Below are positions 10,694-57,123 of a stretch of DNA of 64,000 nt, one piece after another (position 1 is the stretch's first letter; each line of letters begins with the position of its first letter). The stretch is from Kribbella sp. VKM Ac-2569 (lineage in GTDB: Bacteria > Actinomycetota > Actinomycetes > Propionibacteriales > Kribbellaceae), in assembly GCF_004216905.1 (NCBI RefSeq), contig NZ_SGXJ01000004.1, forward strand, positions 620,001 through 684,000, given 5' to 3'. A program made the translations under genes and the position numbers. The notes under the pieces are model-generated. The model saw nothing but the letters and a program-made list of their open reading frames with translations, ran no database searches and was not told the DNA's origin.

Positions 10694-10790
10694 GGCTGGT
10701 TCCCCGCGTGGCGGTATCTCGCCCAATCCCCCCAGGGCCGGAAGGCAGCAAGGGTAAGTGAGCTCTTCCGGGTGCGCGGGGAATCCTCAT
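10694..10790 (+). ncRNA. ffs: Small signal recognition particle RNA (4.5S)
   Basis: The core GGGCCGGAAGGCAGCAAGG with the GGAA tetraloop and the asymmetric AGCA internal loop (about 10735-10753) is the universal Ffh-binding helix 8. The terminal arms TTCCCCGCG (10700-10708) and CGCGGGGAA (10775-10783) pair to close the hairpin. Length and placement near dnaX and a serine tRNA fit bacterial small SRP RNAs. The exact ends are estimated. Confidence 0.9.
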
Positions 10791-10825
10791 GTCTAGGCTT
10801 GGTCCTCCCGAGACAGAGGAGTGCG

Positions 10826-52606: not shown

Positions 52607-53656
52607 ATGATTGCGACGCGACGCACGTTGTTGAAGGCCGGGGCTCTGGGGATCGGGCTTGCTGCGACGCCGGGGCTCTCGGTGGCTGCCCGGCCGCGGC
52701 GGACTCGGGTGCTGCTGGCAACGAACGAGCCTTGGGGGACGTACCACGCCCAACCGTTGCTGGCTGAGGCCGTACGGCGTGGTTGGGAGCTGGTCCAGGT
52801 CGTCCCGGATCTGACGCAGATCAAGCCGGGTGATCCGGTGCCGGTCGCGACGCTGAGCGACGTACCGCAGGCTGATCTGCTGGTGGTGAACGGGGCTTCG
52901 GACTGGCCGGCTGATGTGGCGGCGGCGCTGAAGCGGTTGCCGATGGCGGCGAGTTCGCTGGCGTATCTCAAGCCGGTGGAAGCGCCGCGGGCCAAGGAGT
53001 TCCGATCGCGGTTGGAGCTCGTGACGGCTGCGTCGCCGGCCGAGTCGGACGTGTTCGCGGCGTACCTCGGTTGGACGCATCGAGTGCGGATGGTGGGGTC
53101 GGCGCAGACCGACAACCTGCCGACGTACGCGCCACAGAAGGACCGGGTGTTGGTGCTGACCAGCGTCACGCACCCGGACCAGACCGGCGACGCGGCGCCG
53201 GGCACGCAGTTGCTGCTCGATGCGGCGGCGAAGTTGGAGGCGGCGGGCAAGCACATCGTGGTCGGCCTGCATCCGCGGGAGGACCGGACCCTTTGGGAGC
53301 AGTACGAGATCAGCGCTCTCGGTTCGGTGCCGGAGTCGGCGACCGCGGAATGCGCGGTGGGCATCCCCGGCACAGTGTTCCCGATCGTCGCGGCTGTCGG
53401 CGTACCGCTGGTTGGCTGCGTCGACCCGAAGCTGCAGGTGCCGGACTACATCCTGGACGTGTGTTCGGCGACGATCGACGCGCCCGAGCAGGCCGTCGAC
53501 GCGATCGAGAACGCCAAGCCGGCCAGCCGTGGAGCGGTCTTCAACGCGGTCGGTCCGATCGGCGGATCGGCGCGGCGGCTGTACTCCGCGTGGCACGCCA
53601 CGATTCAGACCACCAGGTGCAACTTGACCGCGGCGACGCCGATCTCGATCCGCTGA
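52607..53656 (+). CDS. Tat-exported protein of unknown function
   Basis: A 349-residue protein with a Tat signal (TRRTLLKAGALGIGLAA). The mature part is alpha/beta with Rossmann-like strands (RVLLATNEPWGTYHAQPLLAEAV, then DRVLVLTSVTHPDQTGD and HIVVGLHPRED), as in GT-B or CDP-glycerol transferase folds; no catalytic residues are identifiable. Its 3' end overlaps the convergent NAD-kinase-like gene by 52 bp. I do not assign a function. Confidence 0.55.
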   Translation: MIATRRTLLKAGALGIGLAATPGLSVAARPRRTRVLLATNEPWGTYHAQPLLAEAVRRGWELVQVVPDLTQIKPGDPVPVATLSDVPQADLLVVNGASDWPADVAAALKRLPMAASSLAYLKPVEAPRAKEFRSRLELVTAASPAESDVFAAYLGWTHRVRMVGSAQTDNLPTYAPQKDRVLVLTSVTHPDQTGDAAPGTQLLLDAAAKLEAAGKHIVVGLHPREDRTLWEQYEISALGSVPESATAECAVGIPGTVFPIVAAVGVPLVGCVDPKLQVPDYILDVCSATIDAPEQAVDAIENAKPASRGAVFNAVGPIGGSARRLYSAWHATIQTTRCNLTAATPISIR

Positions 53657-54480
53657 CCCCAGCCGATACTCAAGGTGTCGGACTCCATCCCGTCGCCGAA
53701 CACGACCAGGTCCGACTCGGCCGTGATCGTCAACGAATCCGGTGCCTTGAGCAACCCTTCGGTGTTGTCGGTGCCGGTCGCCGGTGACGGCCAGGCCTCG
53801 CGGACGAACCAGCACAGCACCGGATCGATCGGTGTTGGCAGCGCCAACGGACTGCGCCGTTCCTGCCAGGCCGATCGGCACCAGCCGGTCGAGCCGGTCC
53901 CGGTGCCGATCAGGATCCCGGATGACGACTGCCGCTCCGGCAATCCATCGGGCGAACTCAGCCGGTAGCGCGCGGACTGGTGTGTCCGATGGCCGACGTA
54001 CACCTCGTTCAACGCGACCAGTTGCTGCCCGTCGTCGGTGCTCGCGGCAACCATCGTCCGCTCGGCGACCTGACGTTCGGCCAGGAGATCGGCGATGGCG
54101 GCGGGTTCGTGCGGCACGAGTACGCCGGGGTTGCGGGACGGCTCGGGGTTGATCCCGATCACCGGCTGACCGTCCAGGTACTTGGCCACATTCGCGACCA
54201 GACCGTCCTGGCCGACCGCGATCACCACATCCTCGGGACCGAAGCCGAACCGGTCCAGGTCGTTGCGCTCGGCAACGGCGCGGCGCCAGTCCAGCGGGAT
54301 CGCCGCCGAGACCGTGGCGAGCGCGTCCTGCTGGGCCTGGTGCCGTGCGTCGAGTTCCGCCAGGTCCCGCCCGCGGCCGGCCAGGAAGAACCCGGCCTGC
54401 TGCCGCGTCCCGTGCCGGGCGACGAGTTCGGTCAACTCGGTCGCCCGATGCACGATCACCGCCCGTGGGGGAAGCGTCAT
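53605..54480 (-). CDS. NAD-kinase-like protein paired with the SPFH protein
   Basis: A 291-residue protein of the ATP-NAD kinase fold with altered motifs. The GGDG motif reads VGQDGLV (residues 89-95). The NE motif is ALNEVYVG (156-163), and the C-terminal loop TPTGSTAY reads GTGTGSTGW (192-200). The core Asp of GxDG is kept, so activity is possible but modified. It overlaps the SPFH gene by 4 bp in one operon. The divergent regulator is of the NrtR type, which in known cases senses ADP-ribose, which fits an NAD-linked role. Confidence 0.7.
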   Translation of the reverse strand: MTLPPRAVIVHRATELTELVARHGTRQQAGFFLAGRGRDLAELDARHQAQQDALATVSAAIPLDWRRAVAERNDLDRFGFGPEDVVIAVGQDGLVANVAKYLDGQPVIGINPEPSRNPGVLVPHEPAAIADLLAERQVAERTMVAASTDDGQQLVALNEVYVGHRTHQSARYRLSSPDGLPERQSSSGILIGTGTGSTGWCRSAWQERRSPLALPTPIDPVLCWFVREAWPSPATGTDNTEGLLKAPDSLTITAESDLVVFGDGMESDTLSIGWGQRIEIGVAAVKLHLVV

Positions 54481-55469
54481 CGCTGCTCGGCCAACCTTGT
54501 GAGGAGCGGCGTGATCAGGTCCGGGGTCACGTTGAGCGTGCCGATCTCCGGTAGTGCGCCCTGCTTGATCGCGACCGCGAGGATGGTCGCCTGGTCGAGT
54601 TCGGCGTACGCCTCCAGCAGAGCCTTCTCGGCAGCAGCCTCCGCTGCCCCGATCACCCGCTTGGCGTCGGCCTCCGCCTCGGCCAGCGCGCGCTGGCGAC
54701 CGGCCGCGGCCTGCGTCTCGATCTGACCGGCGGCCGCGGCCTCGGTCGCACGCATGCGCTCGTTCTGACCGCGCTGGTTGACCAGCTGCTCTTCGCGCCG
54801 GGCGAGCTCGATCTGGTTCTGCAGTTCGTTCTCCGCGATCGACCGCTCCCGCTCGACGGCCATTGCCCGGCGTTCGTACGTCGCCTTGTCCGCGGCCTGC
54901 TGCACCATCTCGCGTGTCGGCGTCTGCAGCGCCTTCTCCACGTCCCGCTCCGCGCGTACGGCGACCACGCGCACGTCCTCGACGCCGATGCCGATCCCGG
55001 TCAGCCGCTGGTCCTCCCGCAGGCCGCTGCCCACCGCCTGGCGAAGCGCGGTCATTCCCTCGGACAGCGCCTCGGTGAGCGTCATGCGGGCGAGCAGGTC
55101 GAGTGCGGTCTGTTGTGCCAGTTCGGTCAGCAGCCCACCGAGTTGCTCGAGCGGGGTTGACCGCCAGAGCCCGGTGTCCGGGTCGATGCCGAAGTCCAGC
55201 CGGGCCGAGGCCAGCGCAGGGTCGGTCACCCGGTAGGTGACGGTGGCCTGCACCACGACGTCCTGGAAGTCCTGCGTGCGGCCGTGGAACAGCAGCGGCT
55301 GCTCGCGGTCGTCGACCGGGATCTCGCTCAGCGACGAGTTCAGGGCCCGGAACCAGAACGCCTGGCCGGCGCCGTCGTGCGCGACCTTGCCGTTGCGCAG
55401 GTGCCGCACGTGGGTGGTCGGGTTGGCCCGTAGGTGGCTGATGAAGCGGAACCGGGTGATGTCTGCCAT
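54477..55469 (-). CDS. SPFH/band-7-like protein
   Basis: A 330-residue protein beginning MADITRFRFISHLRANPTTH. An SPFH/prohibitin-homology domain covers residues 1-180 (QDVVVQATVTYRVTDPALAS, then VEDVRVVAVRAERDVEKAL). It is followed by a long coiled coil (ERRAMAVERERSIAENELQN, then AEAEADAKRVIGAAEAAAEK). No transmembrane helix is seen, so it would be peripheral or cytosolic, unlike classic flotillins. It is transcribed from the NrtR-type promoter region and its end overlaps the NAD-kinase-like gene. Confidence 0.82.
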   Translation of the reverse strand: MADITRFRFISHLRANPTTHVRHLRNGKVAHDGAGQAFWFRALNSSLSEIPVDDREQPLLFHGRTQDFQDVVVQATVTYRVTDPALASARLDFGIDPDTGLWRSTPLEQLGGLLTELAQQTALDLLARMTLTEALSEGMTALRQAVGSGLREDQRLTGIGIGVEDVRVVAVRAERDVEKALQTPTREMVQQAADKATYERRAMAVERERSIAENELQNQIELARREEQLVNQRGQNERMRATEAAAAGQIETQAAAGRQRALAEAEADAKRVIGAAEAAAEKALLEAYAELDQATILAVAIKQGALPEIGTLNVTPDLITPLLTRLAEQR

Positions 55470-55486
55470 CTCTTCGTTCTCCTTGT

Positions 55487-55533
55487 CGTCACTATGACGA
55501 TAAGGGGTTGGGTGACTTCTCGTCAAGGTGACG
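55487..55533. promoter_or_regulatory. Two CGTCA-N3-TGACG operators between spfh and nrtR
   Basis: CGTCACTATGACG (55487-55499) and CGTCAAGGTGACG (55521-55533) have identical half-sites and 3-bp spacers, with centres 34 bp apart, between the divergent SPFH and Nudix genes. Two equal palindromes point to one regulator binding twice, most likely the NrtR-type protein encoded beside them. Confidence 0.75.
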
Positions 55534-55547
55534 ATTAGAGTGGGGTC

Positions 55548-56231
55548 ATGGACTTCGAGCCACTCGGCCTGGCCACTGACCTGGTAATCCTCACCGTCCG
55601 CGACGGCCGCCTCCAGGTGCTGCTGATCCGCCGCGGCATCCCGCCGTACCGGGGCCGGTGGGCGCTGCCTGGCGGGTTCGTGCGGCCGAACGAGGACCTG
55701 GAGACGACCGCGCGCCGCGAGCTGGCGGAGGAGACCGGGCTGTCCGCGGAGCGGATCCACCTCGAACAGGTCGCGACGTACGGCGCTCCCGATCGCGACC
55801 CGCGCGGCCGGGTGGTCAGCGTGGCGTACCTGGCCCTGGTGCCGGACCTGCCCGCCCCCGTCGCGGGCTCCGATGCCGCGTCGGCGAGCTGGGTCGACGC
55901 CACCGACGTACTGGACGACTCCGGCCGGCTGGCGTTCGACCACTACCGGATTTTGGCCGACGGCGTGGAACGCGCCCGCGCCAAACTCGAGTACTCACCC
56001 CTGGCCACCGCGTTCTGCCCACCGGAGTTCACCATCTCCGAACTTCGCGGCGTCTACGAAGCAGTCTGGGGCCTCCCCCTGGACCCCCGAAACTTCCACC
56101 GCAAGGTCACCAAAACCCCCGACTTCGTAGAGCCGGCCGGCACCACCACAACCCGAGACGGCGGCCGCCCCGCCCAACTATTCCACCGAGGCACAGCAAC
56201 AACCCTCCACCCACCCATGACCCGCGGTTGA
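55548..56231 (+). CDS. nrtR: NrtR-type Nudix transcriptional regulator
   Basis: A 227-residue protein with an N-terminal Nudix domain and a C-terminal winged helix. The Nudix box G43-x5-E49-x7-RELAEETGL is fully intact (residues 43-65), so hydrolase activity is possible. The C-terminal half has FTISELRGVYEAVWGLPLDP, then NFHRKVTKTPDF, the winged-helix DNA-binding region of NrtR regulators that control NAD metabolism in other bacteria. It is divergent from the SPFH/NAD-kinase-like operon and autoregulation is likely. Confidence 0.87.
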   Translation: MDFEPLGLATDLVILTVRDGRLQVLLIRRGIPPYRGRWALPGGFVRPNEDLETTARRELAEETGLSAERIHLEQVATYGAPDRDPRGRVVSVAYLALVPDLPAPVAGSDAASASWVDATDVLDDSGRLAFDHYRILADGVERARAKLEYSPLATAFCPPEFTISELRGVYEAVWGLPLDPRNFHRKVTKTPDFVEPAGTTTTRDGGRPAQLFHRGTATTLHPPMTRG

Positions 56232-56232
56232 A

Positions 56233-57123
56233 CTAGAGCTGACGGGTGCGGAGGGCTAGGTCTTCGGCGGTTATCAGGTTGGTGTGGGTGCCGGGGGAGG
56301 TGCAGGCCCAGCCGGCGGCTACGGTGCCGGCGGTGCCGGCGGCTTGCCAGGAGGCTCCGTCCAGGTAGCGGGCCAGGAAGGCGGCTACGTAGGCGTCGCC
56401 GGCGCCGTTGGTGTCGACCACGGGGCGGTCGGGGAAGGTGATCGCGGGGAAGTGGTGGACCGGTTCGCCGCGGACGTGGAGGTAGCTGCCGTCTGCGCCG
56501 GCCATGGCGACCACGACGTCGGCGCGGCCGTTGGCCAGGATCCAGTCGACGCCGTCGGGTGGGAGGGCCGCGGCGGAGACGAAGACGATGTCGGATGCGG
56601 TGGCGAAGTCCTTGTGGTGGTCGTTGCGGCCGTCCCAGTCGTGCAGGTCGGTGGAGATCGAGCGGTCGGCGGCGATCGCGTCCCCGAGGGCGTCGCGGGC
56701 GAAGTCCATGATCGAGACATGGACGTGCTGGGCGTGCCGGATCACCGGGCGCCAGAGGTTCGGGTCGACGCGGAGACCGCGCGGGTGGCGGCCGTCGTAC
56801 ATCGAGAGCCGTCTGCCGTCCGGGGCGACCAGGTTGACCGATCGGCGGGTGCCGCTCGGGTGCAGGACGACGCGCAGCGGGATGCCGAGTTCGTCGTACG
56901 CCCGGCGGATCCGCGCGCCCTCGGGATCGTCGCCGATCACGTCCACCAGCCCGGCGTTGAGCCCGAGCAGGTGACAGCCGAGCGCGACGCCGTGACCCGT
57001 GTGCGCCAGGTACGACTCGATCGGTTCGACCGGAACCGTGTCCACATCCGCCAACGGCAGGCCGGGCACCCGCACGATCGTGTCGATGCCTACTCCGCCG
57101 ATCACCAGCACATCCAACTCCAC
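56233..57123 (-). CDS. PfkB-family carbohydrate kinase
   Basis: A 296-residue kinase from GTG 57123. ELDVLVIGGVGIDTIVRVPG is the N-terminal PfkB pattern, and the C-terminal signature DTNGAGDAYVAAFLA holds the catalytic Asp. YDGRHPRGLRVDP and SIMDFARDALGDA are in the middle. The substrate (sugar or nucleoside) is not readable. It converges with the nrtR gene at 1 bp and is divergent from the lipase-like gene. Confidence 0.85.
   Translation of the reverse strand: MELDVLVIGGVGIDTIVRVPGLPLADVDTVPVEPIESYLAHTGHGVALGCHLLGLNAGLVDVIGDDPEGARIRRAYDELGIPLRVVLHPSGTRRSVNLVAPDGRRLSMYDGRHPRGLRVDPNLWRPVIRHAQHVHVSIMDFARDALGDAIAADRSISTDLHDWDGRNDHHKDFATASDIVFVSAAALPPDGVDWILANGRADVVVAMAGADGSYLHVRGEPVHHFPAITFPDRPVVDTNGAGDAYVAAFLARYLDGASWQAAGTAGTVAAGWACTSPGTHTNLITAEDLALRTRQL

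Follow-up and report, generated by a model that had tools for sequence, protein, structure and literature searches.

Why should a regulator of the NrtR type, an SPFH protein and a protein with the fold of a nicotinamide adenine dinucleotide (NAD) kinase be encoded side by side, and do they form one functional unit? The question is raised by a locus of Kribbella sp. VKM Ac-2569 (contig NZ_SGXJ01000004.1, positions 620,001 to 684,000), a stretch of 64,000 nucleotides that is called the window in the following and to whose positions the coordinates refer. The three genes, their strands and their coordinates had been described in a prediction made from the sequence, and all proved right on re-reading. 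A regulator of the NrtR/AraR family (55548-56231, + strand; 227 aa, with a Nudix domain and an NrtR winged helix) diverges from an SPFH/Band 7 protein gene (54477-55469, − strand; 330 aa) that is followed on the same strand by the gene of an NADK2-like kinase-family protein (53605-54480, − strand; 291 aa). The SPFH gene stop and the kinase gene start overlap by 4 bases, and the spacer between the divergent genes measures 78 bases. The answer that we favor, and to which we would give an even chance of being correct as a whole, is that a dedicated autoregulated repressor, probably released by an NAD-derived nucleotide, controls an SPFH ring together with an NADK2-type kinase, the ligand, the substrate and the complex being the parts that we infer.

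What can be read directly from the DNA is that a pair of conserved operators is common to the NrtR-type gene and the operon and overlies the −35 and −10 elements of the SPFH-kinase promoter. Operator 1, on the side of the SPFH gene, is the palindrome TTATCGTC-N5-GACGACAA in − strand reading (55483-55503), recognized by its sequence and by its footprint in other genomes, and operator 2 lies 34 bp away on the side of the regulator gene (55517-55537). Both are palindromes of 21 bp that agree in the 12 specified bases of TCGTCA-N3-TGACGA. The original prediction of two operators common to regulator and operon thus holds, but the two are not identical, as had been claimed, and only near-identical (78% over 23 bases). 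The promoter-like site TTGACG-18-TATCGT (55497-55526, − strand) lies inside both operators, with the inner half of one palindrome serving as −35 and the inner half of the other as −10, and it is the sole promoter-like match in 53300-56400, where shuffles gave 0.1 on average. In the whole Kribbella genome (8.4 Mb), these two are the sole sites with at most one mismatch from TTMTCGTCANNNTGACGAKAA; five further places match, all at 3 mismatches, and with the reversed pattern as control, 2 places were found when up to 3 mismatches were allowed. As no third site lies at 1 or 2 mismatches, we rejected the idea of a wider regulon in Kribbella. The short core TCGTCA-N3-TGACGA is not unique and has 7 exact matches genome-wide, of which 2 are at this spacer. 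As a side observation, the regulator promoters of several spacers (window 55533-55548) end in TAnnnT at a distance of 6-8 bases from the start codon, so that the transcript may be leaderless.

Is this arrangement retained elsewhere? A kinase scan over one genome per species (84,980 species) gave at least 587 confirmed relatives, the best 80 of which were analyzed together with five further loci. In all 85 of these actinobacterial loci, an SPFH gene lies upstream of the kinase gene on the same strand with a gap of at most 366 bases, and with script-chosen start codons the two genes overlap by 4 bases in 68 of them. The complete set with an adjacent divergent regulator, for which a search in other actinobacteria had been proposed, is present in 56/85 loci. 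The pattern TTATCGTC-N5-GACGATAA is kept in the spacers of distant actinobacteria, mostly as two copies: two sites were found in 68/85 loci, 48 of which have a spacing of 34 bp and 15 of 33 bp. With up to 4 mismatches allowed, the operator is found upstream of the SPFH gene in 55/56 loci with an adjacent regulator and in 25/29 loci without, compared with 2/425 mononucleotide-shuffled spacers. A looser form of the promoter is found upstream in 61/85 loci, a count that has no shuffle control.

The loci that lack an adjacent regulator are informative in their own right. In one genus (g11), which we read as Streptomyces because named Streptomyces loci show the same arrangement, the regulator is encoded away from the operon, with 62-63% identity and with the stretch RNFHRKVT kept in the three aligned copies. 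Its own promoter contains the operator in 21/22 genomes (3/3 by eye and 18/19 scored; shuffles 0/400), 13 of which have the operon and 9 of which do not; in one locus of another genus that was scored alongside, the operator was not found. In a partly different set of 22 operon-holding genomes, 34 of 39 sites with at most one mismatch lie directly upstream of the SPFH gene, as judged by reading the listed sites against the SPFH gene coordinates, and the reversed pattern gave 0; two of these genomes have no site at this threshold. As the operator is common to two unlinked loci, we consider this strong comparative evidence that the regulator acts on the SPFH-kinase operon, and the predicted sharing of operators is thereby found to recur elsewhere and to persist also where the regulator gene is remote. 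For ten operon-less genomes, the search pattern was slightly altered, and 8 of the 12 places that it detected coincide with the promoter of the regulator itself. The presence of regulator and operator in these genomes indicates that the regulator can persist after loss of the operon and that it may control other genes there. The remaining places in these genomes (L205, L207, L209 and L215) might be such targets. One further genome (G080) has two extra perfect palindromes, separated by about 6.4 kb and remote from the operon (L176:5070 and L176:11509, i.e. G080:C1:439069 and 445508); the gene nearest the first one has no Pfam match.

The kinase and the SPFH protein appear to be inseparable. In a separate sample of 256 genomes from the class, 44 were detected with the kinase profile and 44 with the SPFH profile, and these were the same 44, with the genes adjacent in every one of them and the regulator adjacent in at least 25; a lack of co-location elsewhere had been named beforehand as an outcome that would refute the prediction. 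No orphan kinase or SPFH gene was found in the 256 genomes at the thresholds used (E 1e-10 for kinase and regulator, E 1e-30 for SPFH). Distant orphans may have escaped this search, since its profiles derive from the unit itself and its thresholds are unequal, and the 44 genomes, which represent 13 genera, do not count as independent. In a phylum-wide sample, the kinase occurs in 12/296 genomes, and the unit is thus patchy. The pairwise distances of the three proteins correlate with coefficients of 0.93-0.96 over 63 loci and of 0.80-0.88 over the 56 actinobacterial ones (permutations at most 0.41), in a comparison that left out L139 with its broken SPFH gene and L137 with its non-adjacent regulator, and from this agreement we conclude that the unit mostly travelled together. 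No fourth gene recurs: when all reading frames of at least 110 codons were considered, the commonest outside cluster was present in 11/78 loci, 65 of which had at least 4 kb before and at least 2 kb after the kinase. The neighbors of the regulator in the window are the SPFH gene, the kinase gene and a gene for a PfkB sugar kinase, and no NAD-biosynthesis genes are adjacent.

What kind of kinase is it? The AlphaFold2 model (mean predicted local distance difference test score, pLDDT, of 93) has human mitochondrial NAD kinase as its top Foldseek match (E 3.4e-19). In VIA-align, the comparison with human NADK2 (C5orf33; 7R4J-7R4M, 7N29) gave Z 25.4 with a root-mean-square deviation of 3.1 over 275 of the 291 residues, the next NAD kinase reaching 22.3, and in the profile search NADK2 was best with 63 bits, followed by 37. 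As a control, one of the ordinary NAD kinases of the genome found M. tuberculosis Ppnk with 301-302 bits and NADK2 last with 19 in a single-sequence search. Matching stretches are ALNEVFIG and SSGLNLCTGTGSKAW in human NADK2 and ALNEVYVG and SSGILIGTGTGSTGW in the protein studied here. Both proteins have the catalytic Asp, the NE pair, and SSG as well as GTGTGS-W where others have DG and TPTGSTAY, and they differ in that NADK2 has GGDGT in place of GQDGLVAN, in that the solved NADK2 chains are about 100 residues longer, and in that the bacterial protein has an SPFH partner in every copy examined. To judge from these motifs and the modeled fold, with NADK2 as best solved relative, the protein thus appears to belong to an NADK2-like branch. 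With the ordinary bacterial NAD kinases (Mtb Ppnk 1U0R and two of the genome's own) it shares the fold, the catalytic Asp, the Asn-Glu/Asp pair and the Thr, but its identity to the genome's own two is 22% and it lacks GGDG and TPTGSTAY. Five residues are described as vital in M. tuberculosis Ppnk in the available sections of PMC8553519 (Asp85, Asn159, Glu160, Thr200 and Tyr202), four of which are kept (Asp92, Asn158, Glu159 and Thr198), and the Tyr is replaced by Trp, as it is in NADK2. In most proteobacterial copies and in the spirochaete copy, which are described below, the Glu of the NE pair is Asp.

The motifs GQDG and GTGTGSTGW are present as the original prediction had quoted them, but their interpretation as signs of a degenerate NAD kinase is not supported: GQDGLVAN is found in 95/96 family members and GPDGLVAN in the remaining one, and the change in region II and the SSG are common to human NADK2. 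A strain-specific degeneration is rejected in view of this family-wide conservation, though GQDG in place of GGDG remains a peculiarity. As the GGDG motif is not found, we file the protein as NADK2-like and not as NAD kinase. This leads to the first alternative, which we regard as possible and yet rather less probable than the favored explanation, namely that the protein is no NAD kinase at all and either phosphorylates another NAD-derived molecule (e.g. adenosine diphosphate ribose, ADP-ribose) or serves as an NAD(P)-binding pseudokinase that sets the state of the SPFH ring. Besides the nearly invariant GQDG, such a function would suit the control by a type of regulator that senses ADP-ribose and the score of 14.9 bits against PF01513, which is under the cut-off of 25.5. 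In the genome-wide PF01513 search, four places exceed the cut-off, the kinase of the unit (53605-54480) not being among the matches, and the two that were examined are ordinary NAD kinases with GGDG and TPTGSTAY. With two such enzymes already present, it is improbable that housekeeping NADP comes from the kinase of the unit, which again is compatible with a different reaction. The catalytic Asp, the NE/D pair and the Thr are however kept in the aligned actinobacterial, proteobacterial and spirochaete copies, and the similarity to NADK2, an active NAD kinase according to the sections of PMC8553519 at hand, is high, both of which argue against this alternative.

The SPFH protein matches PF01145 with 51.5 bits (cut-off 23.6). 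Its AlphaFold2 model (mean pLDDT 86.7, predicted template modeling score 0.55) begins with strands, without a membrane helix at the N-terminus, and contains a long helix at positions 175-289 (about 115 residues). The best folds are HflK/C, an SPFH-family assembly, stomatin and erlin, and in the top 15 rows the TM-scores to the complete model are 0.37-0.49. With the SPFH proteins known to form rings (HflK/C, stomatin, erlin, flotillin, QmcA), the protein has the SPFH domain and the long helix in common, and in contrast to these it has no hydrophobic segment and is partnered by a kinase, not by FtsH or NfeD. No 19-residue window with a mean hydropathy of at least 1.6 was found in any of the 85 actinobacterial SPFH copies; among the plasmid copies, such windows occur in 3 of 11, with values of 1.61-1.77 at residues 149-166, which is inside the domain. 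From the fold, we would expect a ring or a cage that is soluble or peripherally bound.

The regulator, which had been predicted to belong to the NrtR family, indeed combines the two expected domains, a Nudix domain (PF00293, 87.7 bits) and an NrtR winged helix (PF21906, 53.4 bits; cut-off 27), and scores 135.3 bits against the NCBIfam equivalog NF050029, which is under the cut-off of 400. Its nearest solved relatives are AraR (5bs6, E 3.5e-34), the Nudix-family protein 2fml (E 1.4e-30) and NrtR (3gz5, E 1.9e-29). The domain architecture is that of NrtR from S. oneidensis (3GZ5) and M. smegmatis (MsNrtR) and of AraR from B. thetaiotaomicron (5BS6), as is the palindromic operator between divergent genes, and autoregulation would be a further likeness. 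The target operon is different, with SPFH and kinase genes here and nadABC or arabinose genes there. The Nudix box, correctly predicted to be intact (G-X5-E-X7-RELAEETGL), is complete in 54/56 actinobacterial regulators, whereas it is not intact in 8/8 adjacent proteobacterial ones and is impaired in the characterized NrtR and AraR proteins, as far as the accessible text of PMC6800001 and PMC4666351 goes. In MsNrtR, the hydrolase activity is lost and ADP-ribose at 50 mM releases the DNA (PMC6800001, in part). Ligand binding is therefore probably the function common to these regulators, hydrolysis having either disappeared from one group or survived in the other. The mycobacterial operator GTTTTCGA-N7-TCGAAAAC reported in the same sections (PMC6800001) differs from the operator described here, so knowledge about the ligand cannot be transferred directly. 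The Kribbella genome encodes a second NrtR-type regulator (L173:5795-6373, G000:C3; 42% identity), in which the Nudix box is broken and another stretch takes the place of RNFHRKVT.

Could the SPFH protein instead be the main actor of a membrane- or envelope-stress unit, in which the kinase is accessory and the regulator senses a sugar or another non-NAD ligand as AraR does? We consider this quite improbable. It would fit with AraR being the closest solved relative, the ligand of which is L-arabinose (PMC4666351, available sections), and with the membrane link that is usual for bacterial SPFH proteins, for some of which FtsH or NfeD are the partners (PMC13086221, main text). The actinobacterial SPFH proteins however lack the hydrophobic segment, and kinase and SPFH protein are never apart in the 256 genomes.

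How, then, might a unit of repressor, SPFH ring and NADK2-type kinase function? A regulator dimer on each of the palindromes would block both promoters. Binding of an NAD-derived nucleotide, for which ADP-ribose is the best guess by analogy to characterized NrtR proteins, would release the regulator from the DNA, and the regulator, the SPFH protein and the kinase would then be made, the latter two likely by coupled translation. The SPFH protein may assemble into a ring or cage, and the NADK2-type kinase could work on it or in it. The likeliest reaction would be the conversion of NAD(H) to NADP(H), the phosphorylated form, as an inducible supply in addition to that from the two ordinary NAD kinases. 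The actinobacterial regulators, with their intact Nudix site, may degrade the ligand and thereby reset the switch. Taken to its furthest consequence, which we consider unlikely and put forward as a speculation, a soluble SPFH ring or cage would house or activate its own NADK2-type kinase, so that NADP(H), or else a novel phosphorylated derivative of NAD, is generated in a space enclosed by protein, the repressor would destroy its own inducer in a self-resetting switch for NAD damage, and the mitochondrial enzyme would have a bacterial cousin in this kinase.

Several observations weigh against the favored explanation. In 95/96 family members, the GQDG that replaces GGDG stands beside the catalytic Asp, and the phosphate-binding loop may therefore have an altered function or none. 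In region II, the kinase has Ser for Asp, as does NADK2. The nearest solved relative of the regulator, AraR, binds arabinose and not a nucleotide. The sequence of the SPFH protein suggests that it may not be at the membrane, with peripheral binding remaining conceivable. Finally, 5 of the 39 sites in operon-holding genomes and 4 of the 12 places in operon-less genomes lie elsewhere and are unexplained, and four loci (L039, L040, L076 and L111), none of which has an adjacent regulator, are devoid of an operator site. As these four lack a site and as the regulator outlives the operon, the tie between regulator and operon is not absolute.

In the open-access literature, we found no paper with both SPFH and NAD kinase, none that combines NrtR, Nudix and SPFH, and no description of the gene set, and it is possible that a description exists outside open access. 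A study on Pseudomonas SPFH proteins from 2026 deals with NfeD and rtc contexts, and Nudix and NAD are absent from its main text (PMC13086221). The mentions of Nudix, SPFH and Band-7 in the available portions of PMC7159879 are unrelated.

To our knowledge, it is unclear which clients most bacterial SPFH proteins have. In the unit described here, an SPFH protein is tied to one enzyme, without an exception in the sampled genomes, and to one operator, and its function is therefore directly testable. Kinases of the NADK2 type are now seen as conserved bacterial proteins, which bears on the origin of the mitochondrial enzyme, and the unit offers an NrtR-type regulator that may be sensor and hydrolase at once.

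The three-gene unit occurs in many distant bacteria and is not restricted to Actinobacteria. By tblastn, the kinase was detected in 57 plasmid records, 11 of which were fetched for comparison. Labels in plasmid records are 'sugar kinase', 'ATP-NAD kinase PpnK-type protein' or 'hypothetical protein'. An SPFH gene lies upstream of the kinase gene in 11/11 fetched copies, interrupted in one of them (L139). A divergent Nudix regulator is adjacent in 8/11 (two Rhizobium copies, Cupriavidus, Methylomonas, Moraxella, Acinetobacter, Providencia and Proteus), and not adjacent in the Roseomonas, Treponema and Kitasatospora copies. A site resembling TTAGTGTC-N5-GACACTAA surpasses nearly all shuffles in 6 of the 7 proteobacterial spacers scored, with P values that are favored because the pattern was read from these same spacers. 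Only Moraxella, Proteus and Providencia have a clear site, which shows 1-2 mismatches and the same GTC-N5-GAC core; there are 3-4 mismatches in Rhizobium and Methylomonas, and no such site is seen in Cupriavidus. No copy was found in E. coli by DNA similarity to the Providencia unit, a search that distant copies would escape. RtcB was considered as a further partner and rejected, as the RtcB RNA-ligase gene that follows the unit in one Rhizobium plasmid (L133:6956-8398) is absent by another.

That the unit is a mobile stress or conflict (anti-phage) cassette would agree with its patchy spread in the phylum, its plasmid copies in distant phyla and the association of NAD-linked proteins with such systems (PMC7159879, in part), but is very improbable in view of the conserved operator, the own regulator, the lack of a recurrent neighbor gene, a defense library that gave no match for the SPFH protein or the kinase and one weak Nudix-domain match (PDC-S07) for the regulator and thereby spoke against any known defense system, and the lack of kinase or SPFH relatives in viral contigs and of hits in phage records with two kinase queries, which argues against a phage or viral origin.

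The plasmid records contain some further features of note. In the Moraxella, Acinetobacter and Proteus records (L138, L139 and L141), the tetracycline-resistance genes tet(H) or tet(J) lie beside the unit. Plasmids of Actinobacillus, Psychrobacter, Wohlfahrtiimonas, Moellerella, Mannheimia, Aeromonas and others contain the 3' part of the kinase gene only (H148-H157), and these matches may mark points at which such genes are picked up. The kinase of the Roseomonas plasmid (L132:5989-7176) is extended at its C-terminus, and the extension includes a hydrophobic segment that looks like a membrane anchor. In the Treponema record (L137:1101-2832), a HEPN nuclease gene and a Nudix gene that matches the regulator and has an intact box lie about 4 kb from the SPFH-kinase pair. 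Apart from the unit, the window encodes a small bacterial signal recognition particle RNA at 10695-10791 (+ strand).

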